A stretch of 64,000 nucleotides of DNA from Kutzneria buriramensis (GTDB lineage Bacteria; Actinomycetota; Actinomycetes; Mycobacteriales; Pseudonocardiaceae), in contig NZ_QUNO01000021.1 in the NCBI RefSeq assembly GCF_003387475.1, positions 62,001-126,000 on the forward strand, given 5' to 3'. A program made the translations under genes and the position numbers. Position 1 is the first letter of the stretch. The number at the start of each line of letters is the position of its first letter. Below the pieces are notes generated by a model, which made no database searches, was not told the DNA's origin, and saw only the letters and a program-made list of their open reading frames with translations. Shown in pieces: positions 37,533-63,965 of this stretch.

Positions 37533-38396
37533 TCACCCGGACTGGACGGTGAGGCGGCGGGCGCGCAGGCGGGCGCCCTGGCCCCAGAGCGGGGAGCCGC
37601 CGACGAAGGCGCGGGGGAGTCGGTAGGCGCTGTCGGCCTCGGGCACCAGGCCGGTGCCGTCGGGACCGGCGGCGTGCAGCAGGCAGAGCAGGCCCAGTCC
37701 GAACGTGAGCTGCCGGGGCGCGGCCGGCTGTTCGACACCGCCCTGGTCGATCACGAGGTGCCGGTCGTCCAGGCACCGGTAGCCGATCTTGTCGATGACC
37801 AGCACCTGCTCGCCGTCGACGGCCCAGCGGGCGACGCCCGCGGCGCCGTCCAGGGCGATGCTCAGGCGATGCCAGTCGTCGGGCTGCCGCGAGGCCACCG
37901 GCACGGCGTAGGCGAACGACGCGTGGTCGCTGCCCGGCCTGGGCAGCCGCTCGTAGTAGGCGTACACCGCGGTCGAGGTGAGCAGGAAGTCCAGCACCAC
38001 ACCGGATTCCAGGTCCGCGGCGATGAAAACCCCCGCGGCCAGCCGGAAGTCGGCGGCGTGGCCGGCGACCGCCGGGCCGAACGGATGGCCGGCGGCCCCG
38101 AAGACGCGGGCCGAGACCTCGGCGGCGCCGGTCAGCGCGCCGGCGGCCGGCACGTCGAAGCCCGGCAGGCCCTGCGACGACCGGCGGGCCAGGATGGCGT
38201 TCCACTTCACGTGGTCGGTGGCCAGCTCGAACGCCGGCTCGCCGGTGGTCTCGTGCCGGCCGGCCGGCTCGACGGCCAGCCCGCCCGCGCCCGCGGTGAT
38301 CACGCCGTCGCCCGCCGGCAGCGAGCCCAGCGGCCGGACCAGCCAGTCGGCCCCGAGGCCGCCGGTGAAGTCGTCGTCGAAGAGGGTGGCTGTCAT
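37533..38396 (-). CDS. Hypothetical protein, DUF6081-like beta-sandwich
   Basis: A 287-residue protein beginning MTATLFDDDFTGGLGADWL, a D-D-F-x-G-x-W opening like that of DUF6081 and laminin/concanavalin-like folds. Later segments (LESGVVLDFLLTSTAVYAYYERLPRPG, DWHRLSIALDGAAGVARWAVDGEQV) are strand-rich like carbohydrate- or ligand-binding sandwiches. No signal peptide is visible. It lies at the left edge of the polyketide cluster, divergent from the monooxygenase gene. A role in the pathway is only suggested by position. Confidence 0.65.
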   Translation of the reverse strand: MTATLFDDDFTGGLGADWLVRPLGSLPAGDGVITAGAGGLAVEPAGRHETTGEPAFELATDHVKWNAILARRSSQGLPGFDVPAAGALTGAAEVSARVFGAAGHPFGPAVAGHAADFRLAAGVFIAADLESGVVLDFLLTSTAVYAYYERLPRPGSDHASFAYAVPVASRQPDDWHRLSIALDGAAGVARWAVDGEQVLVIDKIGYRCLDDRHLVIDQGGVEQPAAPRQLTFGLGLLCLLHAAGPDGTGLVPEADSAYRLPRAFVGGSPLWGQGARLRARRLTVQSG

Positions 38397-38531
38397 GGCC
38401 TCACCGTCCTGGCGGCGTCTCGAGCGGCGGTGGACTCGCGATCCAGGGCCGGCCCGACACGCGTTCAAGCCATCCCTGAGTTCCCGCCGAGATGCTGCCA
38501 CCGACACGTCTGCTATCGGAAGGGTGCGGAG

Positions 38532-39641
38532 ATGGGCCAACTGCTGACGGCGGCGGTGGGCGTGGCGGCGCTCGCGGCCAAGCACGCCACCACCGCCGAC
38601 CGTGATCGACGGGTCCCGGCCGAGGTCGCCGAGGCGGTGGTGGAGGCGGGATTCGCGCGGCACTTCGTGCCGGCCAGCCGGGGCGGCGACGCCGGCTCCT
38701 TCACCGAGCTGACGCGGGCGGTCGCGGCCGTCGGCGAGGGCTGCACCGCCACCGCCTGGATCGCGGCGCTGCTGGCGGCGGCCGCGCGCATGACCGCGCA
38801 CCTGCCGGACGAGGGGCAGGCCGAGGTGTGGTCGGACGGCGCGGACACCGTCGTCGTGGCGGCGCTGGTGCCCTTCGGCAAGGCCGAACCGGTCGAGGGC
38901 GGCTGGCGGCTGAGCGGGGAGTGGCCGTACATCAGCGGCGTCGACTTCGCGGACTGGGCGCTGGTCTGCGGCAACGTGCTGACCGACGGCAAACCGGCGC
39001 CGCACTACTTCGCCGTGCCGCGGGCGGAGCACAAGGTCGTCGACACGTGGTTCACGCTCGGCATGCGCGGCACCGGCAGCAACACCCTCGTGCTGGAGGA
39101 CGTCGTCGTCCCCGCGAGCCGGGTGACCGCCCGGGACTCGGTCATCGACGGCCGCGGCAGTTCGTCGCCGGCCCCGTGTCACAACGTGCCGCTGCGGGCG
39201 GTCAACGGACTGCCGTTCTGCGCGCCGGCTCTCGGCGCGGCGAGGGCCATGCTGTCGGGGTGGACGGCGTCGACCGGTCAGAAGATCCGCAACGGCGCCA
39301 CCGCCGGCCGTCCGGTGGACAAGTCCGCGCTGAGCCTCACACTGGCCGAAGCCGCCGGCGAGATCGAGGTCGTGGAGCTGCTGCTGTCGCGGGCGGCCGA
39401 GATCGCCGACCGGGCGGACGTCACGTCGGGGGAGACGGCGCGCAGCGCTCGCGACTACGCGCTGGCCATCCGCCACCTGCGGTCCGCGGTCGACCGCCTG
39501 TTCGCCGCCGGCGGCACGAGCGTGCAGACGGAGAGCAGCCCGCTGGCCCGGATCTGGCGGGACGTGCACGCCATCGCCAGCCACATGGTTATCCAGCTCG
39601 AACCGGCGGCCCTGGCCTACGCCGAGGAAGTCCTACGCTGA
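38532..39641 (+). CDS. Flavin-dependent monooxygenase, acyl-CoA dehydrogenase fold (ActVA-5-like)
   Basis: A 369-residue group D monooxygenase. It has the acyl-CoA-dehydrogenase fold with WRLSGEWPYISGVDFADWALVCG near residue 130 and FTLGMRGTGSNTLVLEDVVVPASRV near residue 180, as in ActVA-ORF5 and HsaA. Such enzymes use reduced flavin from a separate reductase to hydroxylate a polyketide phenol; the partner is probably the flavin reductase at 42949. The acidic catalytic base typical of acyl-CoA dehydrogenases is not evident. It probably introduces quinone oxygens. Confidence 0.85.
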   Translation: MGQLLTAAVGVAALAAKHATTADRDRRVPAEVAEAVVEAGFARHFVPASRGGDAGSFTELTRAVAAVGEGCTATAWIAALLAAAARMTAHLPDEGQAEVWSDGADTVVVAALVPFGKAEPVEGGWRLSGEWPYISGVDFADWALVCGNVLTDGKPAPHYFAVPRAEHKVVDTWFTLGMRGTGSNTLVLEDVVVPASRVTARDSVIDGRGSSSPAPCHNVPLRAVNGLPFCAPALGAARAMLSGWTASTGQKIRNGATAGRPVDKSALSLTLAEAAGEIEVVELLLSRAAEIADRADVTSGETARSARDYALAIRHLRSAVDRLFAAGGTSVQTESSPLARIWRDVHAIASHMVIQLEPAALAYAEEVLR

Positions 39642-39653
39642 TCTCGACCGCCG

Positions 39654-39686: not shown

Positions 39687-39698
39687 GCCGGCGCGGGC

Positions 39699-40484
39699 TC
39701 AGTAGTTGCCCAGTCCGCCGCACACGTTCATGGCCTGCGCGGTGACCGCCGCGGCGGCGTCGCTGATCAGGTAGCTGACCATCGCGGCCACCTCCTCGAC
39801 CTGGACGTACCGGCCGAGCGGCACCCGCGCGGTGATCCGGTCGAACGCCTCGGTCTCGTCCACGCCCCACAGCTGGGCGTAGTTCTGCCGCACCGTCGCC
39901 GCCATCGGCGTCTCGACGAAGCCGGGGCACACCGCGTTCACGGTGACGCCGGTCTTGGCCAGCTCCAGCCCGAGCGCCTTGGTGAAACCGACGACGCCGT
40001 GCTTGGCCGCCGAGTACGGCGCGGCGTGCACGACGCCCTGCTTGCCGCCGGTGGAGGCGATGTTGATGATCCGGCCGCCGGTCCGCCCGGCCAGGCCGCC
40101 GGTGGTGAGCACCTCCCGGGTCATGCGGAACACGCTGTTGAGGTTGGTGTCGATGACGTCGAACCACAGCTCGTCCGGCAGCTCCGCGGTGACGCCGCCG
40201 CCGCCCCGGCCGGCGTTGTTGACCAGCACGTCGACCGGCCCGTAGCGGTCCACCGCATTCTGCACGAACCGGGTGACCCGCTCCCCGTCAGTCACGTCGC
40301 AGCTGCTGCCGTCGACGTCATACCCTTTGTCCTGCAACGACTTCACCAGCTCGGCCACCGCGTCCTCGCGCCGGGCGCACACGTACACCCGGTGTCCCTC
40401 GGCCGCGAGGCGCTCGGTGATCGCGAGGCCGATCCCGCTGGTCGCTCCGGTCACCAGCGCGACCGATCCGGCCCGTTCCTGCAT
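39699..40484 (-). CDS. Polyketide C-9 ketoreductase, ActIII type
   Basis: A 261-residue SDR, the same length as ActIII and highly similar to it. TGATSGIG is the NADP motif, and NIASTGGKQGVVHAAPYSAAKHG holds the catalytic Ser, Tyr and Lys. It ends in TAQAMNVCGGLGNY as in ActIII. It reduces the C-9 carbonyl of the nascent poly-beta-ketone and sets first-ring regiochemistry. The stereochemistry-linked PGG motif of ActIII reads GGG here (AGRGGGGVTAEL). GGAGG lies four bases before the ATG. Confidence 0.95.
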   Translation of the reverse strand: MQERAGSVALVTGATSGIGLAITERLAAEGHRVYVCARREDAVAELVKSLQDKGYDVDGSSCDVTDGERVTRFVQNAVDRYGPVDVLVNNAGRGGGGVTAELPDELWFDVIDTNLNSVFRMTREVLTTGGLAGRTGGRIINIASTGGKQGVVHAAPYSAAKHGVVGFTKALGLELAKTGVTVNAVCPGFVETPMAATVRQNYAQLWGVDETEAFDRITARVPLGRYVQVEEVAAMVSYLISDAAAAVTAQAMNVCGGLGNY

Positions 40485-40663: not shown

Positions 40664-41095
40664 ATGAGTAACACCCAGACGTTCACCGACCTCTACGCGG
40701 AGGTCCAGCACTTCTACGCGAAGCAGGTGCAGCTGCTGGACTCGCGGGCGTTCGACGAGTACGCCGCGACCTACACCGAGGACGCCGAGTTCCAGCACAG
40801 TCCCGGCGTGCCGCCCGCGGTGACCCGGACGGCCATCCTGGCCGAGCTGCACCGCTTCCACGAGCGGTTCGAGGCCGATCCGGTGCAGCGCCGGCACTGG
40901 TTCAACGGGTTCGTGCTCGAGCCGCAGGAGGACGGCAGCGTGCGGTCGACCTTCTACGCCCTGATCGTGCACGTGCGGCCGGGCGTCCGGGAGCCGGAGA
41001 TCGGGCCCAGCTGCGTCGTGCACGACGTGTTGGTGTGGTCGGACGGCGTGTTGCTGACCCGGTCGCGGCGGGTCGACCACGACCACGCGGCCTGA
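40664..41095 (+). CDS. SnoaL-like (NTF2-fold) protein
   Basis: A 143-residue alpha+beta barrel protein: N-terminal helix (FTDLYAEVQHFYAKQVQLLDSRAFDEYAATYTEDAEFQHSP), then strands with HWFNGFVLEPQ and STFYALIVHV. In type II polyketide clusters members act as polyketide cyclases or hydroxylase-associated proteins, for example in pyran ring formation. The exact step is not predictable. GGAGGAG precedes the ATG. It is divergent from the ketoreductase and preceded by a SARP box. Confidence 0.8.
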   Translation: MSNTQTFTDLYAEVQHFYAKQVQLLDSRAFDEYAATYTEDAEFQHSPGVPPAVTRTAILAELHRFHERFEADPVQRRHWFNGFVLEPQEDGSVRSTFYALIVHVRPGVREPEIGPSCVVHDVLVWSDGVLLTRSRRVDHDHAA

Positions 41096-41312: not shown

Positions 41313-42128
41313 ATGGCGGGAATACGTGTCGCGCTGCTGGGGCCCTTGTCCGTGACGTACGACGGCGTCGCCGTGATACCGACGGCGGCCAAGCCGCGCC
41401 AGCTGCTCGCGTTGCTGCTGCTCAACGACGGTGAGACGGTGCCGATCGCGTCGCTGGTCAGCGAGCTGTGGGACGACGCGCCGCCGCGCAGCGCGCTGAC
41501 GACGCTGCAGACCTACGTGCTCCAGTTACGCAAGGAATTCGCGAAGATTCCCGGAATGTGTCCGCAATCCGTCGCCCGCGACCTGTTGCAGACCCGGCAC
41601 GGCGGATACCTGATCAATCTCGGCGGCGCCGAATTCGATCTGCATGAATACCGCGCTCTCCTCGACGCGGGAAACCGGTTCCAGCGGGCCGACGACCCGG
41701 CCGGCGTCGTCGCCGCCTGCACCCGGGCGCTGGGCCTCTGGCAGGGCGCCGCGCTGGCCGATGTCGACCAGGGTCGGTTCCTGCGGGCCGAGACGGCCCA
41801 GCTCGAACAGTCCCGGCTGACCACCCTGGAGACGCTGTTCGACGCCCAGCTGCGGCTCCGGCGGCACCGGGAGGTGCTCAGCGAGCTGGCGGCGATGGTG
41901 GTGCAGCATCCCCTGCACGAACACATCCACGCGCAGTACATGTTGGCGCTGCACCGTTCCGGCCATCGGGCCCGGGCGCTGGAGGTGTTCGGCCGGCTGC
42001 GCGGGGAGCTCACCAGCGAGCTGGGGATCGAGCCGTCCCCGCTGCTGCGCTGGCTGCACCGCGCGATCCTCGCCTCCGACAGCTCGCTGAGCTCACCCGA
42101 GTTCCGGCTGGAGAACGTGGTCGCCTGA
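41313..42128 (+). CDS. SARP family activator 1
   Basis: A 271-residue Streptomyces antibiotic regulatory protein of the short type (ActII-ORF4/RedD-like). The N-terminal OmpR-like winged helix (PRQLLALLLLNDGETVPIASLVSELWDDAPPRSALTTLQTYVLQLRK) is followed by the BTAD all-helical domain (FDLHEYRALLD, LWQGAALADVDQGRFLRAE). It activates biosynthetic promoters at heptamer repeats. The second of two ATGs is best spaced from GGGGG. Its 3' end overlaps the convergent dehydratase by 36 bp. Confidence 0.93.
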   Translation: MAGIRVALLGPLSVTYDGVAVIPTAAKPRQLLALLLLNDGETVPIASLVSELWDDAPPRSALTTLQTYVLQLRKEFAKIPGMCPQSVARDLLQTRHGGYLINLGGAEFDLHEYRALLDAGNRFQRADDPAGVVAACTRALGLWQGAALADVDQGRFLRAETAQLEQSRLTTLETLFDAQLRLRRHREVLSELAAMVVQHPLHEHIHAQYMLALHRSGHRARALEVFGRLRGELTSELGIEPSPLLRWLHRAILASDSSLSSPEFRLENVVA

Positions 42129-42500
42129 CACCGTCGCCGTGACCCGGGCGACCTGCTCGTCCCCACAGCTCACCACGATCCGCACGGTGACCGCCCCGTC
42201 GGCGTCGACGGCGGCGGCCGCACCTCGGACGTCGAGGAACGTGCCTTCCTCGGCCGGCACCGGCACCGCGCGCAGGAACTGCGCCCGGCAGTCGCGCACC
42301 GCCCCGGGATCGCCCGCCCACTCGGTGACCAGGCGCAGGGCCAGCCCCATGGTGAGCATCCCGTGCGCGACGACGTCGGGCAGCCCGGCGTGGACGGCCG
42401 CGTCGGCGTCGAGATGGATCGGGTTGCCGTCGCCCGACGCGGCCGCGTAGCGGGCCAGGTCGGCCCGGGTGACGGGGTACCGGCGATGGCGCACGGTCAT
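42093..42500 (-). CDS. MaoC-like dehydratase subunit
   Basis: A 135-residue hotdog-fold (R)-hydratase. The catalytic Asp-His motif is visible in ARYAAASGDGNPIHLDADAAVHAGLPDVVAHGMLTMGLALRL near residues 22-60. The start ATG overlaps the stop of the upstream hotdog gene (ATGA), so the two are coupled, as in HadA/HadB-type heterodimers. It probably dehydrates 3-hydroxyacyl-ACP during starter-unit assembly, an inference from cluster context. Confidence 0.87.
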   Translation of the reverse strand: MTVRHRRYPVTRADLARYAAASGDGNPIHLDADAAVHAGLPDVVAHGMLTMGLALRLVTEWAGDPGAVRDCRAQFLRAVPVPAEEGTFLDVRGAAAAVDADGAVTVRIVVSCGDEQVARVTATVSGDHVLQPELG

Positions 42501-42946
42501 CGCGCGCCCCCGCGGCATACCAGCGTCGTCGTCGCGTCGCAGACCGGCGCGCCGGCCACCGTGGTGATCTCCTGGTGGGTCACCAGCAGCTCGCTGCCGG
42601 CCACCGACTTGATGTCCTTGACCGTCAAGTGCACGAGGAGCTCGTCGCCGGCGTGGATCGGCCGGTGGTGGACGAAGCGCTGTTCCCGGTGCACGACGCG
42701 GCCGTAGTCCAGGCCGAGCTCGGGGTCGCGGGCCACCCGGTCGTCGGCGCGCCACACCAGCACGATCGGAAACGTCGGCGGGGCAACGAGATCGGGGTGG
42801 CCGAGGGCCCGCGCGGACTCGACGTCGTGGCAGGCCAGCGTGTCGTCGCCGATCGAGGACGCGAAGGCCCGCAGCGCCGAGCGGCCCACGGCGTACACCG
42901 CGTTCGGCGGGTAGGCGCGGCCGATGAACTCCCGGCTGAGCGTCAT
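42497..42946 (-). CDS. FAS1-type (MaoC N-terminal-like) dehydratase subunit
   Basis: A 149-residue hotdog protein of the MaoC_dehydrat_N type: REFIGRAYPPNAVYAVGRSALRAFASSIGD, then APPTFPIVLVWRADD and a helix/strand HREQRFVHHRPIHAGDELLVHL. It lacks the GDxNPxH catalytic motif and would pair with the following MaoC subunit, which has it, as HadA pairs with HadB in mycobacteria. GGGAGGGTGAGC precedes the ATG, and the flavin reductase stop lies two bases upstream. Confidence 0.83.
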   Translation of the reverse strand: MTLSREFIGRAYPPNAVYAVGRSALRAFASSIGDDTLACHDVESARALGHPDLVAPPTFPIVLVWRADDRVARDPELGLDYGRVVHREQRFVHHRPIHAGDELLVHLTVKDIKSVAGSELLVTHQEITTVAGAPVCDATTTLVCRGGAR

Positions 42947-42948: not shown

Positions 42949-43434
42949 TCACCCTCCCACGAGTCGTCGGAACGAGCGGTTGAAATAGACCATCGGCGCG
43001 CCGTCGCGCACGGTCGCGGCGACCACCTCGCCGACCAGGACCACGTGGTCCCCGGCCGGCCACACGTTCACCGTCTCGCAGCTGAGCACGCACAACGCGT
43101 CCTCGACCGCCGGCGCGCCCTCGGCCGGCACGAAACCGGCCGCCAGCTTGTCCACGTCCTTGGTGGCGCAGCGGTTCGCGACGTCGACGTGGTGCTCGCG
43201 CAGGATGCTCACGGTGAACCGCGCACAACGGGAGAACGCCGGGAACGAGTTGGCCGACGTGGACAGGCACAGCAGGATCAGCGGTGGGTCGGCCGACACC
43301 GAGCAGAACGAGCTGGCCGTGAAGGCGAACGAGCGACCCTCGTCGTCCACCGTGGTCGCGACGGTGACGCCGGCGGGGTAGCGGGCCATCGCCGCCCGGA
43401 ACGTGTCGGCGTCGATCCCGGCGCGGGCGGTCAT
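42949..43434 (-). CDS. Flavin reductase (ActVB-like)
   Basis: A 161-residue FMN/FAD reductase of the short-chain HpaC/ActVB family: FRAAMARYPAGVTVATTVDDEGRSFAFTASSFCSVSADPPLILLCL carries the flavin-binding region, and GDHVVLVGEV the C-terminal strand. It supplies reduced flavin to a monooxygenase, probably the ActVA-5-like protein at 38532. The start overlaps the KSIII stop (ATGA). Confidence 0.93.
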   Translation of the reverse strand: MTARAGIDADTFRAAMARYPAGVTVATTVDDEGRSFAFTASSFCSVSADPPLILLCLSTSANSFPAFSRCARFTVSILREHHVDVANRCATKDVDKLAAGFVPAEGAPAVEDALCVLSCETVNVWPAGDHVVLVGEVVAATVRDGAPMVYFNRSFRRLVGG

Positions 43435-44444
43435 CGGCGTTGCCCCGGCAGCAGCACGGCCTGCGCGGCCAGGTTCAGCCCGGCGCCGAAGCCGACCAGC
43501 AGGGCGATGTCGCCCGGCCCGACGTCGCCCTGTGCGAGCAGCCGGTGCATGGCCAGCGGGATCGAGGCGGACGACGTGTTGCCGCTGTCGCGCACATCCC
43601 TTGCCACCACGGCGTTCTCGGCCAGGCCGAGCCGGTCCGCGAGCACCTCGATCATGCGCAGGTTGGCCTGGTGCGGGATGAACGCCCGCACGTCGGCCGC
43701 GGTGACGCCGGCGGCGTCCAGCGCCCGCCGGCAGGCCGGCACGACGTTCTCGACGGCCCAGCGGAACACCCGCTTACCGTCCATCTTCATCATCGGCGGG
43801 TCCAGGGCCGGATCGGCCCGGAAGTCGCCCCACGAGGTGTTCATCCGCAGTGCCGCAAGGCTTTCCGCGTCGGCGGCGCGGATCGCGGGGCCGATGCCCT
43901 GCCGGTCGCCGGGACCGACGACGACCGCGCCGGCGCCGTCGGCGAACAGGAACGCGATGGACCGGTCGGCCGGGTCGACGATGTCGGTCATCCGCTCGAC
44001 GCCGATGACCAGGACGTGCTCGGCCTGGCCGGTGCACACCATGTCGCTCGCGGTCGCCAGCGCGTGGCAGAAGCCCGCGCACGCCGCCGAGACGTCGAAG
44101 CCCGCCGCGTTCGGCAATCCCAGTCCGTCGACGACGGTGATCGCCAGCGGCGGCGTCTGCACGAGATTGGACATGCTGGCCACCACGACGCAGTCGATCC
44201 GGTCGGCAGGCACGCCGGCGTCCGCCAGCGCCTTGCCGCCGGCCGCGACCGCCATCGCGGTCAGCGTCTCCTCCGAGCCGGCGAAGCGCCGGGTGACGAT
44301 ACCTGAGCGTGCCTCTATCCAGTCCGGCGTGGAGTCGATGGTCCGGCACACCTCGTCGTTGGACACGGCCCGGGTCGGCCGGTACACGCCGACGCCGTGC
44401 AGGCTGCTGTGCTGGCGCCGGCCAGCGCGAAGCGACTCGATCAC
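43431..44444 (-). CDS. KSIII (FabH-like) priming ketosynthase 1
   Basis: A 337-residue thiolase-fold enzyme with an intact triad: Cys122 in SAACAGFCHA, His in FIPHQANLRM near residue 262 and Asn in DSGNTSSASIP near residue 292. FabH-type KSIII enzymes start chains by condensing an acyl-CoA with malonyl-ACP. With the adjacent ACP (44589) and acyltransferase (46280) it forms a priming set like those of the frenolicin and R1128 pathways. The start is GTG. Downstream it is coupled to the flavin reductase and dehydratases. Confidence 0.9.
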   Translation of the reverse strand: MIESLRAGRRQHSSLHGVGVYRPTRAVSNDEVCRTIDSTPDWIEARSGIVTRRFAGSEETLTAMAVAAGGKALADAGVPADRIDCVVVASMSNLVQTPPLAITVVDGLGLPNAAGFDVSAACAGFCHALATASDMVCTGQAEHVLVIGVERMTDIVDPADRSIAFLFADGAGAVVVGPGDRQGIGPAIRAADAESLAALRMNTSWGDFRADPALDPPMMKMDGKRVFRWAVENVVPACRRALDAAGVTAADVRAFIPHQANLRMIEVLADRLGLAENAVVARDVRDSGNTSSASIPLAMHRLLAQGDVGPGDIALLVGFGAGLNLAAQAVLLPGQRR

Positions 44445-44588: not shown

Positions 44589-44849
44589 ATGACCGACTTC
44601 CCCCTCGCCGAACTCAAGCGCGTCGTCGAATCCTGTGTGGGCACGGACAACGCCGCCGAGATCGAGGAGAGCACGCTCGACGTCGAGCTGGTCGAGCTCG
44701 GCCTGGACTCGCTCGCCGTGTACGAGGTGGTCACCCGGCTCCAGGACGAGCTGGGCATCACCGTGTCCGACGAGGAGATCGACGGCCTGCGCACGCCGCG
44801 CCAGGTGCTCGAGTTCGTCGGCGGCCGGCTGGCCACCGCGGCCGGCTGA
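44589..44849 (+). CDS. Acyl carrier protein 2 (priming ACP)
   Basis: An 86-residue ACP with the phosphopantetheine serine Ser41 in ELGLDSLAVYE. It is distinct from the minimal-PKS ACP at 51175 and lies next to KSIII 1, so it probably carries the starter unit during its elongation and reduction, like ZhuG or FrnJ. GGAGG precedes the ATG. It converges on the XRE-TPR gene with a 6-bp gap. Confidence 0.93.
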   Translation: MTDFPLAELKRVVESCVGTDNAAEIEESTLDVELVELGLDSLAVYEVVTRLQDELGITVSDEEIDGLRTPRQVLEFVGGRLATAAG

Positions 44850-56638: not shown

Positions 56639-57631
56639 ATGCTGACCATGCCCATCGACAGCTACGGCGCGCCCGACGTGCTGCGGCCGGTACGGGTCCC
56701 AGTACCCGAGCCGGCAGCCGGCCAGGTGCGGATCGCCGCCGAGGCGATCAGCGTCGGCTTCGCGCAGACCCAGATCCGGCGCGACATCTTCCCCGCGCCG
56801 GTGTGGCGGCCGAAGCTGCCGGTCGTGCTCGGCGGCGATGTCGTCGGCGTCGTCGCCGCGCTCGGGCCCGATGTCACCGGTGTCGGCGTCGGCGACCGCG
56901 TGGGCGCGTTCCTGTTGGAGGGCGCCTACGCCGACCACGTCGTCGCCGAGGCCGCCACGCTGATCCCGGTGCCGGCGGAACTGGACGCGGGGGCGGCGAC
57001 GGTGCTCGCCGGCAGCGGCCCCATCGCGGTCGGCGTGCTGAGCGAGGGCCGGCTCGCGGCCGGCGAGACCGTCCTCGTGCACGCGGCGGCGGGCGGCATC
57101 GGGCATCTCGCCGTGCAGCTGGCGAAGCTCGCGGGCGCCGGCCTCGTCGTCGCGACCGCCAGCACCCCGGCGAAGCTGGAGTTCGCCCGCTCGCTCGGCG
57201 CGGACGTGGTCGTCGACTACACGAAGCCGGACTGGGCCGACGAGGTGCGTGCCGCCACCGACGGCCGCGGCGTGGACCTCGTCCTGGACAGCGTGGGCGG
57301 AGACGTGCTGCGCCAAGGCATCCAGCTGCTCGCGCCGTCGGGACGGCTGGTGTTCTTCGGCTCGGCCGGCGGCGGCCGGGAGATTCCGAGCGTGTCCGTG
57401 ATGGACCTCATCGGCCTCAAGCACGTCACCGGATTCGCGCTGAACACCTGGCGCCGGGCCCATCCGGACGCCTTCCGCGACGGCGTCGCCGAGCTGACCG
57501 AGCACCTGCGCGCCGGTCGGGTCGTGTCGGCCGTGCACGCCCGGCTGCCGCTGTCGGACGCCGCACGGGGCCACGAGATGGTGGAGGGCCGCCAGCACCA
57601 CGGCACCGTGGTGCTCGTGCCGTCCGTGTGA
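56639..57631 (+). CDS. Zinc-independent quinone oxidoreductase / enoyl reductase (ActVI-2/4-like)
   Basis: A 330-residue MDR-superfamily reductase. VLGGDVVGVVAALGPDVTGVGVGDRVGAF is the GroES-like core, and VLVHAAAGGIGHLAVQLAKLAGA near residue 140 is the NADPH motif; zinc-ligand cysteines are absent. In the actinorhodin pathway such enoyl reductases reduce the C14-C15 double bond during pyran formation. ATG is preferred because GGGAG lies seven bases upstream; an ATG seven codons earlier overlaps the SDR stop. Confidence 0.88.
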   Translation: MLTMPIDSYGAPDVLRPVRVPVPEPAAGQVRIAAEAISVGFAQTQIRRDIFPAPVWRPKLPVVLGGDVVGVVAALGPDVTGVGVGDRVGAFLLEGAYADHVVAEAATLIPVPAELDAGAATVLAGSGPIAVGVLSEGRLAAGETVLVHAAAGGIGHLAVQLAKLAGAGLVVATASTPAKLEFARSLGADVVVDYTKPDWADEVRAATDGRGVDLVLDSVGGDVLRQGIQLLAPSGRLVFFGSAGGGREIPSVSVMDLIGLKHVTGFALNTWRRAHPDAFRDGVAELTEHLRAGRVVSAVHARLPLSDAARGHEMVEGRQHHGTVVLVPSV

Positions 57632-57682: not shown

Positions 57683-58483
57683 TCACAGCAATGAGCCGCC
57701 GCTGACGTCGAACCAGTCGCCGGTGATCCAGCGCGCGTCCGGCGAGGCGACGAAGGCCACCACGTCCGCGACCTCCTCCGGCCGGCCCATCCGGCCCAGC
57801 ACCGCCCGGCCGGCCAGCTCCGACCGGGCCGCGAGCACGGTGCGCACGCTGTCGGCGTCCCAGTTCTCCGGATGCCCCAGCCGCCGGGGCGTGCCGCTGG
57901 TGTCGATCACGCCCGGCGCCACCGAGTTCACGGTGATCTGCCGCGGCGCCAACGCCTTGGCCAGGTGCCGGGTGAAGACGTCCAGCGCGCCCTTGGTCAT
58001 CGCGTAGGCGATGTCCGCCGGGAACGCGAGCCGGCCGACCACCGACGAGACGTTGATGATCCGGCCGCCGTCGTTGAGCCGCGGCAATGCCTGCTGCACC
58101 ACGAAGAACGGCGCGCGGGCGTTGACCGCGAAGACCCGGTCGAAGTCCTCGGGTCGGATGCTCTCGATCGAGCCGGGCCAGCCGACGGCGGCGTTGTTGA
58201 CCAGGATGTCGAGGCGGTCGCCGCCGGTGTGCTCGCGCAGGCCCGCGTCCAGTCCGGCGAACAGCTTGTCCACGCCGTCCGGCGCGCCCAGCTCGGCGGC
58301 GACGGCGAACGCCACGCCGCCCCGCTCGCCGATCTCGTTCACGACCTCCTTGGCGGCGGCCTCCTCCCGTGAGTAGTGCACGGCGACCGCCGCGCCGTCG
58401 GCGGCGAGCCGCAGCGCGGTGGCCCGTCCGATTCCCCTGCTGGCCCCGGTGATCAGCGCCGTCCGGCCGGTCAAGTCAGGCAC
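57683..58483 (-). CDS. Short-chain dehydrogenase/reductase, FabG-like
   Basis: A 266-residue SDR with TGASRGIGRAT near residue 12, NNAAVGWPGS near residue 95, and NVSSVVGRLAFPADIAYAMTKGAL holding Ser, Tyr and Lys. It ends ITGDWFDVSGGSLL. AAAGGGAG precedes the GTG, which is chosen over an ATG seventeen codons upstream. It is the only gene in this part on the minus strand and may act on the starter chain or on a tailoring step. Confidence 0.87.
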   Translation of the reverse strand: MPDLTGRTALITGASRGIGRATALRLAADGAAVAVHYSREEAAAKEVVNEIGERGGVAFAVAAELGAPDGVDKLFAGLDAGLREHTGGDRLDILVNNAAVGWPGSIESIRPEDFDRVFAVNARAPFFVVQQALPRLNDGGRIINVSSVVGRLAFPADIAYAMTKGALDVFTRHLAKALAPRQITVNSVAPGVIDTSGTPRRLGHPENWDADSVRTVLAARSELAGRAVLGRMGRPEEVADVVAFVASPDARWITGDWFDVSGGSLL

Positions 58484-58647: not shown

Positions 58648-59622
58648 ATGCCCGTCGGAATTCTCAACACCGGAAGCTATGTGCCCGACCACGTCGTCGG
58701 CAACGCCGAGGTGGCGCGGTGGAGCGGCGCCACCGAGGACTGGATCCGTGACCGTACCGGCGTTTTCGAGCGCCGTTACGCCGACGTCGGCACGCCGACC
58801 TCCGAGTTGGCCCACCGCGCCGTCGACGACATGCTCTCGCGCGACCCCGGGGCGTTGGCCGGCGTCGGCGCGATCGTGCTCGCGACGTCCACTCCGGACC
58901 AACCGCAGCCGGCCACCGCCGCCGTCCTGCACGGCCGGCTCGGCCTGCCGCCGATGCCGGCGTTCGACGTCAACTCGGTGTGCGCCGGGTTCCTCTACGC
59001 GCTCGTGGTCGGCTCCCAGCTGGTCACCGACGACCGCGGGGTCCTCGTGGTCGGCGCGGACATCTACTCGACGATCATGGACCGTGGCGACCGCCGGACG
59101 GTGACGCTGTTCGGGGACGGGGCCGGCGCCGTGGTGCTGGGCCAGGTTCCCGAGGGCCACGGCCTGCACGCGCACCGGCTGGTCACCCACGGCGAGCACC
59201 GCGGCCTGGTGGAGGTCGCCGCCGGCGGCACCCGCATGGCGCTGGACGAGCCGGCGCGGGAGAAGGGCGAGCACCTGTTCCGGATGCAGGGCAGAGCCGT
59301 GCGGGAGTACGCCATGGCCACCCTGCCCGGCCTCGTCGTGGAGACGCTCGACGAGGCCGGGCTGCTGTTGTCCGATGTGGACAGACTGGTGCTGCACCAG
59401 GCCAATCCCCGGATGCTGGCCGACCTCGCCCACGAACTGGGTGTGCGCATGGACCGCGTGGTGCTGTCCGCGCCCCGTTTCGGCAACACCGGCGCCGCGT
59501 CCATCCCGATCACGCTGCGCACCGCCGAGCGGCAGCGGCCGTTCGTGCGCGGCGAGCGGATCCTGTTCGCGGCTGTGGGTGGCGGCATGAGCGCCGGCGC
59601 GGCCGTGCTCACCTGGTACTGA
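58648..59622 (+). CDS. KSIII (FabH-like) priming ketosynthase 2
   Basis: A 324-residue FabH homologue with an intact triad: Cys112 in DVNSVCAGFLYA, His in LVLHQANPRML near residue 250 and Asn in RFGNTGAASIP near residue 281. Numbering and motifs are closer to housekeeping FabH than KSIII 1 is. It heads an operon with an SDR and a crotonase, suggesting a dedicated starter-unit elongation line. GAGGAGG precedes the ATG. Confidence 0.9.
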   Translation: MPVGILNTGSYVPDHVVGNAEVARWSGATEDWIRDRTGVFERRYADVGTPTSELAHRAVDDMLSRDPGALAGVGAIVLATSTPDQPQPATAAVLHGRLGLPPMPAFDVNSVCAGFLYALVVGSQLVTDDRGVLVVGADIYSTIMDRGDRRTVTLFGDGAGAVVLGQVPEGHGLHAHRLVTHGEHRGLVEVAAGGTRMALDEPAREKGEHLFRMQGRAVREYAMATLPGLVVETLDEAGLLLSDVDRLVLHQANPRMLADLAHELGVRMDRVVLSAPRFGNTGAASIPITLRTAERQRPFVRGERILFAAVGGGMSAGAAVLTWY

Positions 59623-59636: not shown

Positions 59637-60359
59637 ATGCTGCTCAAGGGAAAGGTCGCCGTGGTCACCGGCGGCACCAGAGGCCTGGGACGGGCGATCG
59701 CCGAGGCCTACGCGATCGAGGGCGCGACCGTGGTGTGCGCGTCGCGTCGGCCCGGCCCGGCCGACGTCGACCTGATGGAGTTCGATCAGGTCGACGTCGC
59801 CGACCCGGACTCGGCGCAGCGGCTGATGGACCGGACCGTGGACCGGCACGGCCGGCTGGACGTGGTGGTCGCCAACGCGGGCGTCAACCACGACGGCAAG
59901 GTGCACCGGCTGCCGGTGGACCGGTGGAACGAGATGGTCGGGGTCAACCTGAGCGGCGTCTTCCACTGCACCCGGGCCGCCGTCGGACACATGGAGCGCC
60001 AGGGCGGCGGCCGCATCGTGAACGTGTCGTCGAGCATGGCGACCCGGGTCGCCATCGGGGCGGCCGGCTACTGCGCGACCAAGGCCGCCGTCGAGATGTT
60101 CACCAAGGTCTCGGCGATCGAGTTGGGGCGCAAGGGAATTCTGGTCAACTGTCTCGCGCCGGGCATCCTCGACGAGGGCATGGGGCGGGAGCTGACCGGG
60201 AACGACAAGGTGTGGGCGGCCTACCGGTCCCGGTTCGCGCTCGGCCGGCCGGGCTCGGCGGCCGAGGCCGCGCAGGCCGCGGTCTTTCTCGCCGCCGAGG
60301 CGAGTTCCTACGTCAACGGGCACGTGCTGGAAGTGAACGGAGGCCTGCTGTGGGCGTGA
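59637..60359 (+). CDS. 3-oxoacyl reductase-like SDR (FabG-like)
   Basis: A 240-residue SDR. TGGTRGLGRAI is the cofactor motif, NAGVNHDGKVH near residue 80 the NAG motif, and NVSSSMATRVAIGAAGYCATKAAV holds Ser, Tyr and Lys. It ends in a FabG-like NGHVLEVNGGLLWA. In an operon between KSIII 2 and a crotonase it probably reduces the beta-keto group of the starter. GGAG precedes the ATG. Confidence 0.88.
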   Translation: MLLKGKVAVVTGGTRGLGRAIAEAYAIEGATVVCASRRPGPADVDLMEFDQVDVADPDSAQRLMDRTVDRHGRLDVVVANAGVNHDGKVHRLPVDRWNEMVGVNLSGVFHCTRAAVGHMERQGGGRIVNVSSSMATRVAIGAAGYCATKAAVEMFTKVSAIELGRKGILVNCLAPGILDEGMGRELTGNDKVWAAYRSRFALGRPGSAAEAAQAAVFLAAEASSYVNGHVLEVNGGLLWA

Positions 60360-61141
60360 CGACCACGCCGCTGGTGCGGCTGCTGGTGGACGGCGGGATC
60401 GGCACCATCATGGTCGACCGGCCGCCGGTGAACGCCCTGTCCGTCGCGGCGCAGGCCGATCTGCGGGCGGTGGCGACGCAGGCCGCCGAGCGCGACGACG
60501 TCCGCGCCGTGGTCGTCACCGGCGGGCGGCGGATCTTCTCGGCTGGCGCGGACATCCGTGAGATGGCGGAGATGTCGCACGCGGAGATGGCCGACCACGC
60601 GCCCCGCCTGCAGGCCGCCTTCGACGCCGTGGCCCGGATTCCCAAGCCGGTGGTGGCCGCGGTGAACGGCTACGCGCTCGGCGGCGGATGTGAGCTCGCG
60701 CTGGCCGCCGACCGCCGGATCTGCACCCCGCAGGCCCGGCTGGGCCTGCCGGAGATCCTGCTCGGGGTGATCCCGGGCGCCGGCGGCACCCAGCGGCTGA
60801 CCCGGCTGGTCGGGCCGGCGAAGGCCAAGGACCTGCTGTTCACCGGGCGCCAGCTGGACGCGGTGGAGGCGCTGGAGATCGGACTGGTCGACGAGATCGT
60901 GGACGAGGCCGATCTGGTGCCGGCGGCGCGGCGGTGGGCCGAGCAGTTCGTGTCGGGGCCGGCAGCGGCGCTGCGGGCGGCCAAGGCCGCCGTGGACGTC
61001 GGGGCCGGCCTGCCGATGGCCGAGGCGCTGGACTGGGAGACGTCGCTGTTCAGCGACCTGTTCGGCACCGAGGACCGGCTGATCGGCATGCGCAGCTTCG
61101 TGACCGACGGCGCCGGCCGGGCGCGGTTCGTCGGCCGGTGA
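60350..61141 (+). CDS. Enoyl-CoA hydratase/isomerase (crotonase) family protein
   Basis: A 263-residue crotonase. Oxyanion-hole segments are FSAGADIREM near residue 63 and GYALGGGCELALAADRRI near residue 105; the catalytic Glu is in LGLPEILLGVIPGAGGTQRL near residue 130. It could dehydrate a 3-hydroxyacyl starter intermediate. GGAGG is six bases before the GTG given; a GTG two codons later would give a 4-base overlap with the SDR stop. Confidence 0.9.
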   Translation: MGVTTTPLVRLLVDGGIGTIMVDRPPVNALSVAAQADLRAVATQAAERDDVRAVVVTGGRRIFSAGADIREMAEMSHAEMADHAPRLQAAFDAVARIPKPVVAAVNGYALGGGCELALAADRRICTPQARLGLPEILLGVIPGAGGTQRLTRLVGPAKAKDLLFTGRQLDAVEALEIGLVDEIVDEADLVPAARRWAEQFVSGPAAALRAAKAAVDVGAGLPMAEALDWETSLFSDLFGTEDRLIGMRSFVTDGAGRARFVGR

Positions 61142-61145
61142 CGGG

Positions 61146-61472
61146 TCAGTCCCGCGGCGCGGGCGCGTTGAGGACGGCCTCCAGCAGGCCGGGGAAGCAG
61201 GCGGCCAGGTCGTCCTCACGCAGCCGCACGATGCGGGCGGTGCCCTCGACGCGCTGCGAGATCACGCCGGCGTTGCGCAGGATGCGCAGGTGGTGCGACA
61301 CGGTCGAGCGGGAGATGGTCAGCCCGGCCTGGTGGGCCGCGTGGTAGCAGGCCGACTCGCCCTGGCCGGCCAGCACCCGGACGAGCGCGAGGCGCACCGG
61401 ATCGGCCAGCGCGGCGAGTACCGACTCGAGACGCAGCTCCGTCACGGCTGGCTGGGCGACCGCAATGTTCAC
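61146..61472 (-). CDS. ArsR-family winged-helix regulator
   Basis: A 108-residue regulator. The recognition region is AAHQAGLTISRSTVSHHLRILRNAGVISQR near residues 45-75. There is no ELCVCDL metal-binding motif and only two isolated cysteines, so it is probably not a metal sensor. It diverges from the MFS exporter and likely represses it at the dyad between them. The GTG lies six bases after TATGCT (61479-61484), indicating a leaderless mRNA. Confidence 0.9.
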   Translation of the reverse strand: MNIAVAQPAVTELRLESVLAALADPVRLALVRVLAGQGESACYHAAHQAGLTISRSTVSHHLRILRNAGVISQRVEGTARIVRLREDDLAACFPGLLEAVLNAPAPRD

Positions 61473-61569: not shown

Positions 61570-63033
61570 GTGTCCGAGCTGGAACCGCGCCGCTGGTGGA
61601 TACTGCCGGTGCTGTTGTCGGCGACGTTCATGTACGGCTTCGACGGCAACGCCGTGAACGTCGCCATCCCGTCGCTGCAGCAGGATCTGCACGCCGGCCA
61701 GGTCGCCCTCGAACTGGTCGTCGGCGGCTACGCCTTCTCCTACGCGATGGGCCTGGTGACCGGCGGCCGGCTGGGCGACCTGCTGGGCCACCGCCGGATG
61801 TTCCTGACCGGCATGGCCGGCTTCACCGTCGCGTCCGTGCTGTGCGGGCTGTCGCAGAACTCGGCCGAGCTGGTCGGCGCCCGCTTCATCCAGGGCCTGA
61901 CCGCGGCCGTGATGGTGCCGCAGGTGCTCGCGCTGATCACGTCGATCTTCCCGGCCACCGAGCGGCCGAAGGCCCTGTCCTGGTTCGGCGTGGTGATGGG
62001 CCTGTGCGGCATCGCCGGCCAGGTGCTGGGCGGCCTGCTGCTCACCGTGCAGCTGTTCGACCTGGGCTGGCGGGTCATCTTCTTCGTGAACCTGCCGATC
62101 GGCATCGTGGTGTTCGCGCTGGCCTGGCAGTTGCTGCCGCGCGTCGCCTCGCAGCGCAAGCCCGGCCTCGACCCGGTCGGCGTGGTCGGCATCTCCGGCG
62201 CGATCGCGCTGGCCCTGGTGCCGCTGGTGATCGGCCGGGAAGAGGGCTGGCCGGCGTGGACCTTCGTGTCGCTGGGCGCCTCGGTCGTGGTGATGGCGGC
62301 CGCGCTGCTGTGGGAACGGCGACTGGCCAACTCCGGCGGCCAGCCGCTGCTGGACCTGGCCCTGTTCCGCATCCGCTCGTTCAACACCGGGCTGGCCATC
62401 AACATCGCCTTCATGGCGTTCTTCGCGAGCAGCATGTTCACGCTGAGCCTGTTGCTGCAGACCGGCCTCGGCCTGACGGCGCTGCAGGCCGGCCTCACGT
62501 TCGTGCCGCTGGCGGTGCTGGCCATGGCGACGTCGCTGCTGGGACGGCCGCTGGTGGCCAAGTACGGGCTGCGCACGCTGACCTTCGGCAGCCTGATCAA
62601 CGTGGTCGGCGTGCTGCTGCTGGTGCTGGAGCTGCACACGCTGGGCGGTGCGGTCGGTCCGCTGTGGATGATCCTGCCGCTGGCCGTGATGGGCTTCGGG
62701 CAGGGCCTGGTGCTGCCGTCGCTGATCGGCGCCACGCTGTCGGGCATCCGTCCCGAGCAGGCCGGTGTCGCCGCGGGCGCGCTGACGACGACCCAGCAGT
62801 TCGCCGGCGCGGCCGGCCTGGCCGCCATCGGCGTGCTGTATTTCGCGACTCTGGGGTCGCGGACCGGGGCGGCGTCCTACGCTTCGGCCACCGAGATCGC
62901 GCTGTGGGTCGACCTCGGTGTGGTCGTGGTGATGACGGTTCTGACCCTGCTGCTGCCCAAGGGCCGGCCGGCCGCGCCGGCGCCCGCGCCGGCGGCGAAG
63001 GCCGAGGAGCCGGCCGCGGCCGCGAACAACTGA
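61570..63033 (+). CDS. MFS exporter, DHA2 family, of the polyketide cluster
   Basis: A 487-residue, 14-helix transporter: FMYGFDGNAVNVAIPSLQQDL in helix 1, TGGRLGDLLGHRRMFLTGM for motif A, and FIQGLTAAVMVPQVLALI in helix 4. A Pro/Ala-rich tail of about 25 residues follows the last helix. It probably exports the polyketide and gives self-resistance, controlled by the divergent ArsR regulator. GGGGGG lies six bases before the GTG. Confidence 0.93.
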   Translation: MSELEPRRWWILPVLLSATFMYGFDGNAVNVAIPSLQQDLHAGQVALELVVGGYAFSYAMGLVTGGRLGDLLGHRRMFLTGMAGFTVASVLCGLSQNSAELVGARFIQGLTAAVMVPQVLALITSIFPATERPKALSWFGVVMGLCGIAGQVLGGLLLTVQLFDLGWRVIFFVNLPIGIVVFALAWQLLPRVASQRKPGLDPVGVVGISGAIALALVPLVIGREEGWPAWTFVSLGASVVVMAAALLWERRLANSGGQPLLDLALFRIRSFNTGLAINIAFMAFFASSMFTLSLLLQTGLGLTALQAGLTFVPLAVLAMATSLLGRPLVAKYGLRTLTFGSLINVVGVLLLVLELHTLGGAVGPLWMILPLAVMGFGQGLVLPSLIGATLSGIRPEQAGVAAGALTTTQQFAGAAGLAAIGVLYFATLGSRTGAASYASATEIALWVDLGVVVVMTVLTLLLPKGRPAAPAPAPAAKAEEPAAAANN

Positions 63034-63044
63034 GAAGGGCGACG

Positions 63045-63965
63045 ATGCGCGGTTACGTCACCGATCCCGCCGGCCGGGCCGGTCTGCTGCTGGCCGACGA
63101 TCTGCCCGAGCCGACGCCGGCGCCCGACGAGTCGGTCGTCGAGGTGCGGGCGTTCGCGATCAACGCCGGTGAGGCGCGGCTGATCCAGATGCGGCCCGAC
63201 CGCTGGCGGCCGGGGCAGGACGTGGCCGGCGTGGTGGTGCGGGCCGCGGCCGACGGCGGCGGCCCGCCCGTCGGCGCGCGGGTGGCCGCCCGACTGGACT
63301 GGGAGGGCTGGGCCGAGCGGGTGCCGGTGCCGACCAGCCGGGCCGCGCGGTTCGACGACCGCGTGTCGTTCGAACAGGCCGCCACACTGCCGGTGGCCGG
63401 GCTGACCGCGCTGCGGGCGTTGTGGCAGGGCGGGGCCGTGTTCGGGCGGCGGGTGCTGGTGACGGGCGCGACCGGCGGCGTCGGCCAGTTCGCGGTGCAG
63501 CTCGCGGCGCTGGCCGGCGCCCGGGTCACCGCGTGGGTCAGTGGCGCTGATCGGGAGGAGGAGGCGCGCGAACTCGGCGCGCACTCCGTGATCACGTCGT
63601 TGGCCGACGGCGACGGCCCGTTCCACCTGGTGCTTGACGGCGTGGGCGGCCCGGGGCTGACCGAGGCCCTGCACCGGACCGCGCCGGACGGCACCGTCGT
63701 GCTGTACGGCGGACCCGGCGGCGCGGCCGAGATCCGGCTCGGCGACTTCTACCGGTCGGCGCACAACGGCCGGATCGTCGGCTTCATCAGCGACGCCCCG
63801 GAGGACGCGATCGGCGCCGATCTGACCGTGCTCACCGACCTGGTCGCCGAGGGCCGGCTGCGGCCGCGGATCGGGCTGGCGGCGGACTGGCGTGAGACGC
63901 CCGCGGCGTTCGAGGCGCTGGCCGAGCGAAAGGTCCGCGGCAAGGCCGTGCTCACGATCGGATAA
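63045..63965 (+). CDS. MDR-family quinone oxidoreductase / enoyl reductase
   Basis: A 306-residue NADPH-dependent reductase without zinc ligands. VLVTGATGGVGQFAVQLAALAGA near residue 140 is the cofactor motif, and INAGEARLIQMRPDRWRPGQDVAGVV the N-terminal domain. It starts 11 bases after the exporter stop, so the two share a transcript. It could be the enoyl reductase of the starter-unit cycle or a second ActVI-2/4-type enzyme. A palindromic element begins ten bases after its stop. Confidence 0.87.
   Translation: MRGYVTDPAGRAGLLLADDLPEPTPAPDESVVEVRAFAINAGEARLIQMRPDRWRPGQDVAGVVVRAAADGGGPPVGARVAARLDWEGWAERVPVPTSRAARFDDRVSFEQAATLPVAGLTALRALWQGGAVFGRRVLVTGATGGVGQFAVQLAALAGARVTAWVSGADREEEARELGAHSVITSLADGDGPFHLVLDGVGGPGLTEALHRTAPDGTVVLYGGPGGAAEIRLGDFYRSAHNGRIVGFISDAPEDAIGADLTVLTDLVAEGRLRPRIGLAADWRETPAAFEALAERKVRGKAVLTIG

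Follow-up and report, generated by a model that had tools for sequence, protein, structure and literature searches.

We analyzed a 64,000-nucleotide stretch of DNA from Kutzneria buriramensis (the window; contig NZ_QUNO01000021.1, positions 62,001 to 126,000), which lies on contig 21 of a 12.0-Mb genome in 65 contigs. Gene models from a home-made codon-usage predictor placed one type II polyketide synthase (PKS) cluster of 30 genes at positions 37,533 to 63,965 of the window, with the same two ends that a first-pass annotation had given, and each of the 30 proteins was searched against Pfam and NCBIfam. Judged by sequence comparison, this cluster is probably a frenolicin-type bimodular type II PKS for a benzoisochromanequinone (BIQ; a pyranonaphthoquinone) and, at the same time, a mosaic of two lineages. 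The genes are listed below (KS, ketosynthase; CLF, chain-length factor; ACP, acyl carrier protein; KR, ketoreductase; SDR and MDR, short-chain and medium-chain dehydrogenase/reductase; SARP, Streptomyces antibiotic regulatory protein; MFS, major facilitator superfamily; percentages refer to the homologs in the genomes or plasmid named).

37533-38396, minus: DUF6081 protein (Pfam PF19559; recurs in BIQ-like relatives)
38532-39641, plus: acyl-CoA-dehydrogenase-like flavin monooxygenase, ActVA-5-like (PF08028; best PDB matches 3-HSA and p-hydroxyphenylacetate hydroxylase oxygenases)
39699-40484, minus: C-9 ketoreductase, ActIII-like (PDB actinorhodin KR, 380 bits; KR tree)
40664-41095, plus: SnoaL/NTF2-like protein, ActVI-ORFA-like (PF13577)
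41313-42128, plus: SARP regulator 1 (BTAD PF03704)
42093-42500, minus: MaoC dehydratase subunit B, HadB-like, GDGNPIH motif (PF01575; NCBIfam HadB below cut-off)
42497-42946, minus: MaoC dehydratase subunit A, HadA-like (PF13452; NCBIfam HadA below cut-off)
42949-43434, minus: flavin reductase, ActVB-like (PF01613)
43431-44444, minus: KSIII-1, ZhuH/FrnI-type priming ketosynthase, C122, H258, N289 (PDB 1mzj, 396 bits; motifs)
44589-44849, plus: ACP2, initiation-module acyl carrier protein (PF00550; adjoins KSIII-1 in relatives)
44856-46184, minus: XRE/TPR regulator (PF01381)
46280-47287, minus: acyltransferase (AT), GHSVG, ZhuC/FrnK-type by context (PF00698; AT tree)
47634-48461, plus: SARP regulator 2 (BTAD PF03704)
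48667-49935, plus: KSalpha (PDB 1tqy_A, 687 bits)
49932-51173, plus: CLF (PDB actinorhodin CLF 1tqy_B, 528 bits)
51175-51429, plus: ACP1, elongation ACP (PF00550)
51429-52358, plus: didomain aromatase/cyclase (ARO/CYC), ActVII-like (PF10604/PF03364, two stretches)
52355-53272, plus: metallo-beta-lactamase (MBL)-fold protein, putative ActIV-like cyclase (PF00753; homolog in BIQ-like relatives)
53295-54287, plus: 3HCDH ketoreductase, ActVI-1/Med-ORF12-like (PF02737/PF00725; His/+12/Glu spacing)
54284-55423, plus: membrane acyltransferase AcTr3, Acyl_transf_3 (PF01757; 52% S. lincolnensis L4, 45% G674)
55435-55905, plus: cupin (PF07883; 61% S. lincolnensis L4, 66% G674)
55902-56624, plus: SDR56, carbonyl-reductase-like (PF00106; PDB carbonyl/menthone reductases; 63% in S. 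lincolnensis L4 and G674)
56639-57631, plus: MDR57, quinone-reductase-like MDR (PF00107; 67% S. lincolnensis L4, 70% G674)
57683-58483, minus: SDR58, ketoreductase (PDB 4osp, 6ypz, 7nm7, 4kwh; likeness includes AntM)
58648-59622, plus: KSIII-2, FabH-like, C112, H250, N280, not closest to ZhuH (FabH families; cassette relatives; motifs)
59637-60359, plus: SDR60, FabG-like, cassette member (PF13561; 67% in Mut1 plasmid)
60350-61141, plus: crotonase (ECH), cassette member (PF00378; 60% in Mut1 plasmid)
61146-61472, minus: ArsR-family regulator (PF01022; 50% S. lincolnensis L4, 54% G674)
61570-63033, plus: MFS efflux transporter (PF07690; 65% S. lincolnensis L4, 64% G674)
63045-63965, plus: MDR64, quinone-reductase-like MDR (PF00107; 57% S. 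lincolnensis L4, 66% G674)

Every enzyme class named in the first-pass annotation was recovered with Pfam and NCBIfam: KSalpha, CLF, ACP, KR, didomain aromatase, MBL-fold protein and 3HCDH; the acyl-CoA-dehydrogenase-like flavin monooxygenase and flavin reductase, two KSIII enzymes, a second ACP, an AT and a MaoC pair; and three SDRs besides the KR, a crotonase, two MDRs, an Acyl_transf_3 protein and a cupin. Beyond that list, the cluster holds the SnoaL/NTF2-like protein, two SARPs, the XRE/TPR regulator, ArsR, the MFS transporter and the DUF6081 protein. The annotation had also reported no glycosyltransferase gene, and that family is indeed absent from the Pfam and NCBIfam tables of the 30 proteins; the sole sugar-type match in the Pfam tables was the generic Epimerase model, on SDR proteins. 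The enzyme matches are far beyond chance, and the cluster is real, coherent and well bounded. The plus-strand genes from KSalpha (48,667) to MDR57 (57,631) overlap or stand at most 25 bases apart, which suggests that they form one operon. On the minus strand (44,444 to 42,093), neighboring genes from KSIII-1 through the flavin reductase and MaoC-A to MaoC-B overlap or are all but contiguous, and KSIII-2, SDR60 and ECH make up a third unit in the gene models.

The core gene set is of the BIQ type, a proposal borne out by the domains, the PDB matches of KS, CLF and KR, and the 3HCDH. The minimal PKS (KSalpha, CLF and ACP) has the expected active residues by domains, PDB matches and motifs. It is accompanied by an ActIII-type KR (380 bits to the act KR) and by a didomain aromatase recognized from two Polyketide_cyc stretches. 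The MBL-fold protein, a putative ActIV-like cyclase, was assigned through PF00753 and homologs in BIQ-like relatives. Expected motifs were found in KSIII-1, KSIII-2, KSalpha, CLF, both ACPs, AT, MaoC-B, ECH and 3HCDH; except where a paper is cited, the choice of expected residues is our own assumption, as are the names ActVA-5-like for the monooxygenase and ActVB-like for the flavin reductase. Among the PDB entries, 1mzj is ZhuH, 4osp the UrdM reductase and 4kwh LanV. The idea that SDR58 is a plain FabG was set aside, its best PDB matches being 4osp, 6ypz, AntM and 4kwh. The candidate C3 reductase was recognized by its 3HCDH domains and compared through relatives; it shares 54.5% identity with an HCDH of plasmid pSA3239, the bearer of the auricin cluster, and has a His followed by a Glu 12 residues on, the spacing of His129 and Glu141 in ActVI-ORF1 (PMC4498746; papers are cited throughout for individual passages). 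Homologs of ActVI-ORFA are described in the alnumycin, medermycin, granaticin and frenolicin clusters (PMC11315284).

An initiation module is also present, consisting of a ZhuH-type KSIII with C-H-N residues, a second ACP and an AT assigned to the ZhuC/FrnK type by context. C122, H258 and N289 of KSIII-1 stand in FabH motifs and are the residue types given for ZhuH (PMC12664062). That review names T97 as the cap residue of Mycobacterium tuberculosis FabH and gives Thr for the ZhuH cap as well; position 97 of KSIII-1, in its own numbering, is Thr. Priming of the DpsC type (S-H-D), in which Ser replaces the catalytic Cys of the priming acyltransferase (PMC12664062), was ruled out, both KSIII enzymes having Cys in CAGF. 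The presence of KSIII-1, ACP2 and AT, and a KS/CLF placed among those of initiation-module clusters (see below), uphold the prediction of machinery for a non-acetate starter.

At an E value of ≤1e-110, KSIII-1 had matches in 12 of 392 Streptomyces genomes and in 7 of 390 genomes of the family (the window's own included). We fetched 17 KSIII-1 stretches, leaving out the window and the genome of locus L057. MaoC-B and MaoC-A both adjoin the KSIII in 2 of the 17 (L264 and L265), and MaoC-A alone does so in 2 others (L268 and L269). Since the genome of L265 (G255) also has type II KS/CLF, KR and AT within 60 kb, and a Dactylosporangium vinaceum locus (L069) has the pair too, the MaoC pair stands beside a priming KSIII in at least two other type II clusters. 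L268 and L269 (G238 and G242) place relatives of KSIII-1, ACP2 and MaoC-A beside a second KSIII (42% to KSIII-2), an acyl-CoA-dehydrogenase-like gene and an aminotransferase-like gene (some names assigned by eye from N-terminal residues). These two loci have no CLF match within 60 kb (KS matches reach only 26 to 27%), which suggests that the unit making acyl-ACP also travels apart from aromatic PKS clusters.

To place the cluster among its relatives, named genomes were scanned with a CLF alignment, yielding at least 80 loci, onto which the 30 window proteins were mapped. Longer stretches were then taken: 31 to 61 kb for nine stretches from eight genomes, 60 kb for six further genomes and 40 kb for G674. 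A plasmid DNA search gave matches that centered on KS/CLF in the 20 records listed of 94. Streptomyces sp. VRA16 (L057) and Streptacidiphilus jiangxiensis (L062) share with the window a ZhuH/FrnI-type KSIII, ACP2, AT, KS/CLF, KR, didomain ARO/CYC, MBL-fold protein, SnoaL-like protein and 3HCDH, together with the gene order at the initiation module (FlavRed-KSIII-ACP2-AT-SARP-KS-CLF-ACP in L057, KSIII-ACP2-AT-KS-CLF-ACP in L062). In these two loci, however, neither a MaoC pair nor a close counterpart of the window's AcTr3-MDR57-SDR56 block or KSIII-2 cassette is seen (the L062 stretch has AcTr3 at 33% and a cupin at 54%, located further off), and their KR is of another lineage and runs with the KS, whereas the window's runs against it. 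The likeness to frenolicin was judged by sequence through these frenolicin-like loci. A published table gives a type II PKS cluster in the species of L062 50% similarity to the frenolicin biosynthetic gene cluster (PMC7601586); this is presumably L062, in a genome with two KS loci.

Streptomyces lincolnensis L4 (L076, G100:C44) and G674 share a different part of the window: AcTr3, MDR57, SDR56, cupin, MDR64, MFS and ArsR, as well as the acyl-CoA-dehydrogenase-like monooxygenase, DUF6081, ARO/CYC and a divergent KR/SnoaL pair with the KR against the KS. In contrast to the window, they have no KSIII-1, AT, MaoC or 3HCDH match among those listed (61.1 and 40.0 kb), and their KS/CLF is of another lineage. 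The presence of AcTr3, the cupin, SDR56, both MDRs, MFS and ArsR in these two Streptomyces clusters, without a matched initiation module in the stretches examined, marks them as probable tailoring or export genes. The first-pass annotation had counted the MDRs, SDRs, crotonase and KSIII-2 into one full priming and reduction set; this was not supported, since the components occur apart in other loci. A single starter set embracing all reductases was likewise rejected, given the recurrence of MDR57, MDR64, SDR56, the cupin and AcTr3 in clusters without a matched initiation module. The membrane acyltransferase and cupin, singled out there as unusual, are less so now that both are found in S. lincolnensis L4 and G674. 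At an E value of ≤1e-85, AcTr3 matched 3 of 295 Streptomyces genomes: two carry the block, and in the third the match lies on a 12.8-kb contig that lacks it. The idea that AcTr3 is unique was dropped, with matches of at least 40% in at least four loci (L070, L076, L083 and L090) among the 80 listed.

We then compared gene trees. Rows were labeled primed by gene content only (KSIII-1 at ≥55% or AT at ≥40% in the stretch examined); the AT cut-off was set after the data were seen, and at 44%, L067 would be unlabeled unless a KSIII on seemingly the same contig (L262) counts. A quick KS/CLF IQ-TREE used 56 of 103 rows, hand-chosen as the window plus 43 of 50 and 12 of 52 from the two sides of a split in the 103-row FastTree. 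In it, the window fell into a set of 18 rows (SH-aLRT, 94), with 16 primed among the other 17, beside eight KR-bearing frenolicin-like rows (SH-aLRT, 89); the neighboring 26-row set (100), which includes S. lincolnensis L4 and G674, has 2 primed rows. A 101-row FastTree also kept the primed rows together, in a clade of 18 rows (0.909) that includes the window and leaves out the actinorhodin KS/CLF. Products are known for almost none of the rows in the KS/CLF trees. Within these limits, the comparisons turned up neither a close full-length match to a characterized cluster nor a KS/CLF placement outside the BIQ clade. In the KR tree (27 rows, those at ≥55%), the window's KR was found with 15 rows mostly without priming genes (99/98), away from nine primed rows. 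The KR and KS/CLF trees conflict. Holding the KR with the nine primed rows was rejected by the approximately unbiased (AU) test (p-AU = 0.0131), as was holding KS/CLF with the KR's group (p-AU = 0.00165) or with ISL11, L060, G674 and S. lincolnensis L4 (p-AU = 5.2e-7); the KS/CLF tests omit L058. The label of the initiation-module group (INIT) comes partly from the 101-row KS/CLF tree and that of the KR group (KRC) from the KR tree, so that group support in those trees is partly circular; the AU tests apply each label to the other gene. KR gene direction agrees with the KR tree: it runs against the KS in the window and in 10 of 13 listed loci of the KR group, and with the KS in 4 of 4 listed primed loci. 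The KR/SnoaL pair can be divergent in both primed and unprimed kinds. The AcTr3 tree joins the window to S. lincolnensis L4 and G674 (1.0), and the ACP1 (0.836) and flavin reductase (0.807, with G197) trees lean to the frenolicin-like rows.

Several observations weigh against a frenolicin-type mosaic. The 103-row KS/CLF FastTree, which leaves out L058, G163, G238 and G242, did not recover the primed rows as one group: the smallest branch side that includes the window, ECHI, VRA16 and DVIN had 51 rows, with 19 of the 50 others primed versus 7 of 52 outside. The KR group is not free of priming genes (AT at 47% in L082, KSIII at 51% in ISL11). The AT tree (0.824) leans to rubrolone-like, same-family and other rows rather than to Streptomyces frenolicin-like ones, and KSIII-1 (0.877 with G392, 0.628 for the next set) is likewise nearer the rubrolone-like, same-family and other rows; the ARO/CYC, SnoaL, MBL and DUF6081 trees gave no resolution. 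Direct comparison with characterized proteins was limited to the act KS, CLF and KR and 1mzj, all via PDB, and the absence of an initiation module in relatives holds for the stretches examined only. Nor need priming be exclusive: an acetate-primed product is also formed by the frenolicin PKS (PMC340942). Finally, the closest KS/CLF by identity among the loci listed (80%/74%) belongs to the Streptomyces echinoruber cluster (L056), which is KR-less and probably rubrolone-type, not BIQ.

This last point bears on whether the product could instead be an anthraquinone or rearranged compound of the R1128/rubrolone class. The initiation modules of R1128 (ZhuH/ZhuG/ZhuC) and rubrolone (RubE1-E3) have the same KSIII-1, ACP2 and AT types as the window. 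The S. echinoruber cluster has them as well (KSIII, 67%; AT, 59%), resembles the published rubrolone cluster by eye, and agrees with the lean of the KSIII-1 and AT trees. D. vinaceum L069 has MaoC-B/MaoC-A/KSIII/ACP2 in the order of the window, but with no flavin reductase in between, and both loci have rubrolone/R1128-like layouts (by eye, from predicted proteins and PMC5059770). Unlike the window, however, neither has an ActIII-type KR, full didomain ARO/CYC or 3HCDH match in the stretches examined, that of S. echinoruber ending at a contig edge just past the CLF. A cluster of this class would have no ActIII-type C-9 KR and would have ZhuI/ZhuJ-type cyclases, whereas the window has the KR, a didomain ARO/CYC and an ActVI-1-like reductase; the small cyclase-like genes of DVIN and ECHI (by eye) have no evident counterpart among its 30 genes; its KS/CLF falls with the KR-bearing subset (89); and R1128 cyclases reportedly act on unreduced chains (PMC340942). 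We therefore regard such a product as very unlikely.

For the frenolicin-type mosaic, the simplest account of the tree conflict is an exchange, with the initiation module, KS/CLF, ACP1 and flavin reductase on one side and the KR and AcTr3/MDR/MFS block on the other. By the same trees, the initiation module and KS/CLF appear to belong to primed lineages and to have travelled together, and the KR and AcTr3/MDR/MFS block appear to belong to a lineage mostly without an initiation module seen. The act KS-CLF given a longer primer made a shortened chain, since a KS-CLF counts atoms, and the act KR and act cyclases took reduced octaketides regardless of primer (PMC340942). If a priming module moved without a longer-counting KS-CLF, the chain would therefore be unusable by the resident cyclases, whereas joint transfer would work; the KS/CLF versus KR pattern fits the joint transfer that such a rule would require.

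The predicted starter is a short acyl chain. Our best guess is butyryl, because it is listed for R1128B, frenolicin and alnumycin in a review (PMC12664062; see also PMC10376017, where alnumycin biosynthesis begins with butyryl) and has been proposed for rubrolone (PMC5059770). A dedicated enoyl reductase for the starter was not identified among the 30 genes, as both MDRs recur in clusters without a matched initiation module, and this too counts against the frenolicin-type interpretation. The reducing enzymes of R1128, including the enoyl reductase, are borrowed from fatty-acid synthesis, and rishirilide has a dedicated ketoreductase, RslO3 (PMC7221717); RubE7 of rubrolone may be dedicated too (PMC5059770). 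A dedicated MaoC dehydratase pair would extend this trend toward dedicated starter enzymes. In the Creative Commons-licensed PMC literature, no such arrangement was evident among the papers listed for a MaoC-bearing priming module, for initiation-module recombination or for frenolicin with an acyltransferase or cupin.

Judged by its relatives, KSIII-2/SDR60/ECH is a separate cassette that is found elsewhere without a CLF. KSIII-2 had matches in 8 of 390 genomes of the family (E ≤ 1e-80, the window's own included) and 17 of 392 Streptomyces genomes (E ≤ 1e-85); none of six same-genus genomes passed the threshold for KSIII-1 or KSIII-2. All 24 other neighborhoods (7 family, 17 Streptomyces) lacked a CLF match above 37% in the stretches examined, so we rejected KSIII-2 as a common type II starter enzyme. 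SDR60 (≥50%) and ECH (≥45%) occur together in 6 of the 24, and AcTr3 occurs in 1. The plasmid of Streptomyces sp. Mut1 (L179) keeps the relative order and strand of KSIII-2 (59%), SDR60 (67%) and ECH (60%) but differs in having PaaA/C/D-like genes between KSIII and SDR, an AMP ligase after them, and no type II KS/CLF match. Loci L217 to L228 form an orphan-cluster family in which a KSIII-2-like KSIII accompanies an SDR. Some members add PaaA/C/D-like genes and an AMP ligase, and others carry an additional KSIII-family protein, a KR-like SDR and a KS (about 40% to KSalpha).

One role for this cassette would be in making a longer or unsaturated starter: KSIII-1 and MaoC would give C4 and KSIII-2/SDR60/ECH would run a second round to C6, or the lack of an enoyl reductase would leave a crotonyl or hexadienoyl primer. 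In favor of this, the C, H and N expected in FabH-type condensing motifs occur in both KSIII enzymes, the cluster holds two beta-processing sets (the MaoC pair; SDR60 and ECH), and a review lists hexanoate and hexadienyl primers for type II systems (PMC12664062). We nevertheless consider this unlikely, since by its neighborhoods KSIII-2 does not usually act as a starter enzyme of type II systems, and endogenous fatty-acid enzymes, enoyl reductase included, reportedly serve R1128 (PMC7221717). Alternatively, the cassette may supply a short enoyl or hydroxyacyl group of its own, which AcTr3 would esterify onto the quinone core, the core being butyrate- or even acetate-primed. AcTr3 is at hand, the cassette locus L228 also has an AcTr3 homolog (39%), and the cassette sits between MDR57 and ArsR, inside the block common to S. 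lincolnensis L4 and G674. Yet in those two clusters AcTr3 occurs without a KSIII-1 or KSIII-2 match in the stretches examined and would need no cassette, and its presence in a single KSIII-2 neighborhood makes this role quite improbable. A broader but rather unlikely proposal is that acyl groups are made along two lines in a bimodular aromatic PKS, both driven by a KSIII and both equipped with a separate dehydratase (the MaoC pair or the crotonase). One line would prime the chain through a largely dedicated initiation module and the other would re-elongate the primer or make an acyl ester for AcTr3. This would be combined with a natural joint transfer of the initiation module and its matching KS/CLF into a largely unprimed BIQ-type cluster, in keeping with the atom-counting rule established with engineered PKSs.

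In the pathway predicted for a butyryl-primed BIQ, KSIII-1 would join an acyl-CoA, most likely acetyl-CoA, to malonyl-ACP2. The resulting chain would be reduced by SDR58, SDR60 or a ketoreductase of fatty-acid synthesis, dehydrated by MaoC-A/B and converted to butyryl-ACP2 by a borrowed enoyl reductase, with the AT homolog removing acetyl-ACP. KS/CLF/ACP1 would add about seven malonyl units to the primer, and the ActIII-, ActVII- and ActIV-like enzymes would give a bicyclic intermediate. The ActVI-1-like 3HCDH would set the C3 alcohol, predicted to be S; the ActVA-5/ActVB-like enzymes would hydroxylate; and AcTr3, the cupin, SDR56 and the MDRs would modify the core before the MFS protein exported the product.

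The cluster looks like a variant of known cluster types, with chain-starting machinery and some finishing enzymes of different ancestry, rather than a novel type of system. As a candidate natural parallel to the engineered bimodular PKSs of PMC340942, it offers a way to test which parts have to be transferred jointly and whether primer specificity changes with a dedicated MaoC dehydratase. What had been read as a single reductive complement splits into three blocks that occur apart, which helps in predicting the products of orphan clusters. The product may be a new pyranonaphthoquinone with an alkyl side chain, perhaps as an acyl ester.

DUF6081 (37533-38396) shares a stretch with type II KS/CLF in 14 other distinct loci (15 tree rows; ISL11 and L083 are one locus), and its recurrence suggests an unrecognized role in this pathway class. 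The same genome has three further KS/CLF-like loci (G000:C9:275886-278332, G000:C14:154717-157210 and G000:C14:99212-101919), with CLF identities to the cluster's CLF of 57, 48 and 44%. The flanking genes are apparently unrelated to the cluster: subtilase, HD-domain and lycopene-cyclase-like genes on the left and DUF6786, GH36 and ABC-transport genes on the right. Elsewhere in the window, positions 18623-25124 resemble a Suf iron-sulfur assembly operon, an ordinary housekeeping locus (by eye, from N-terminal residues only).

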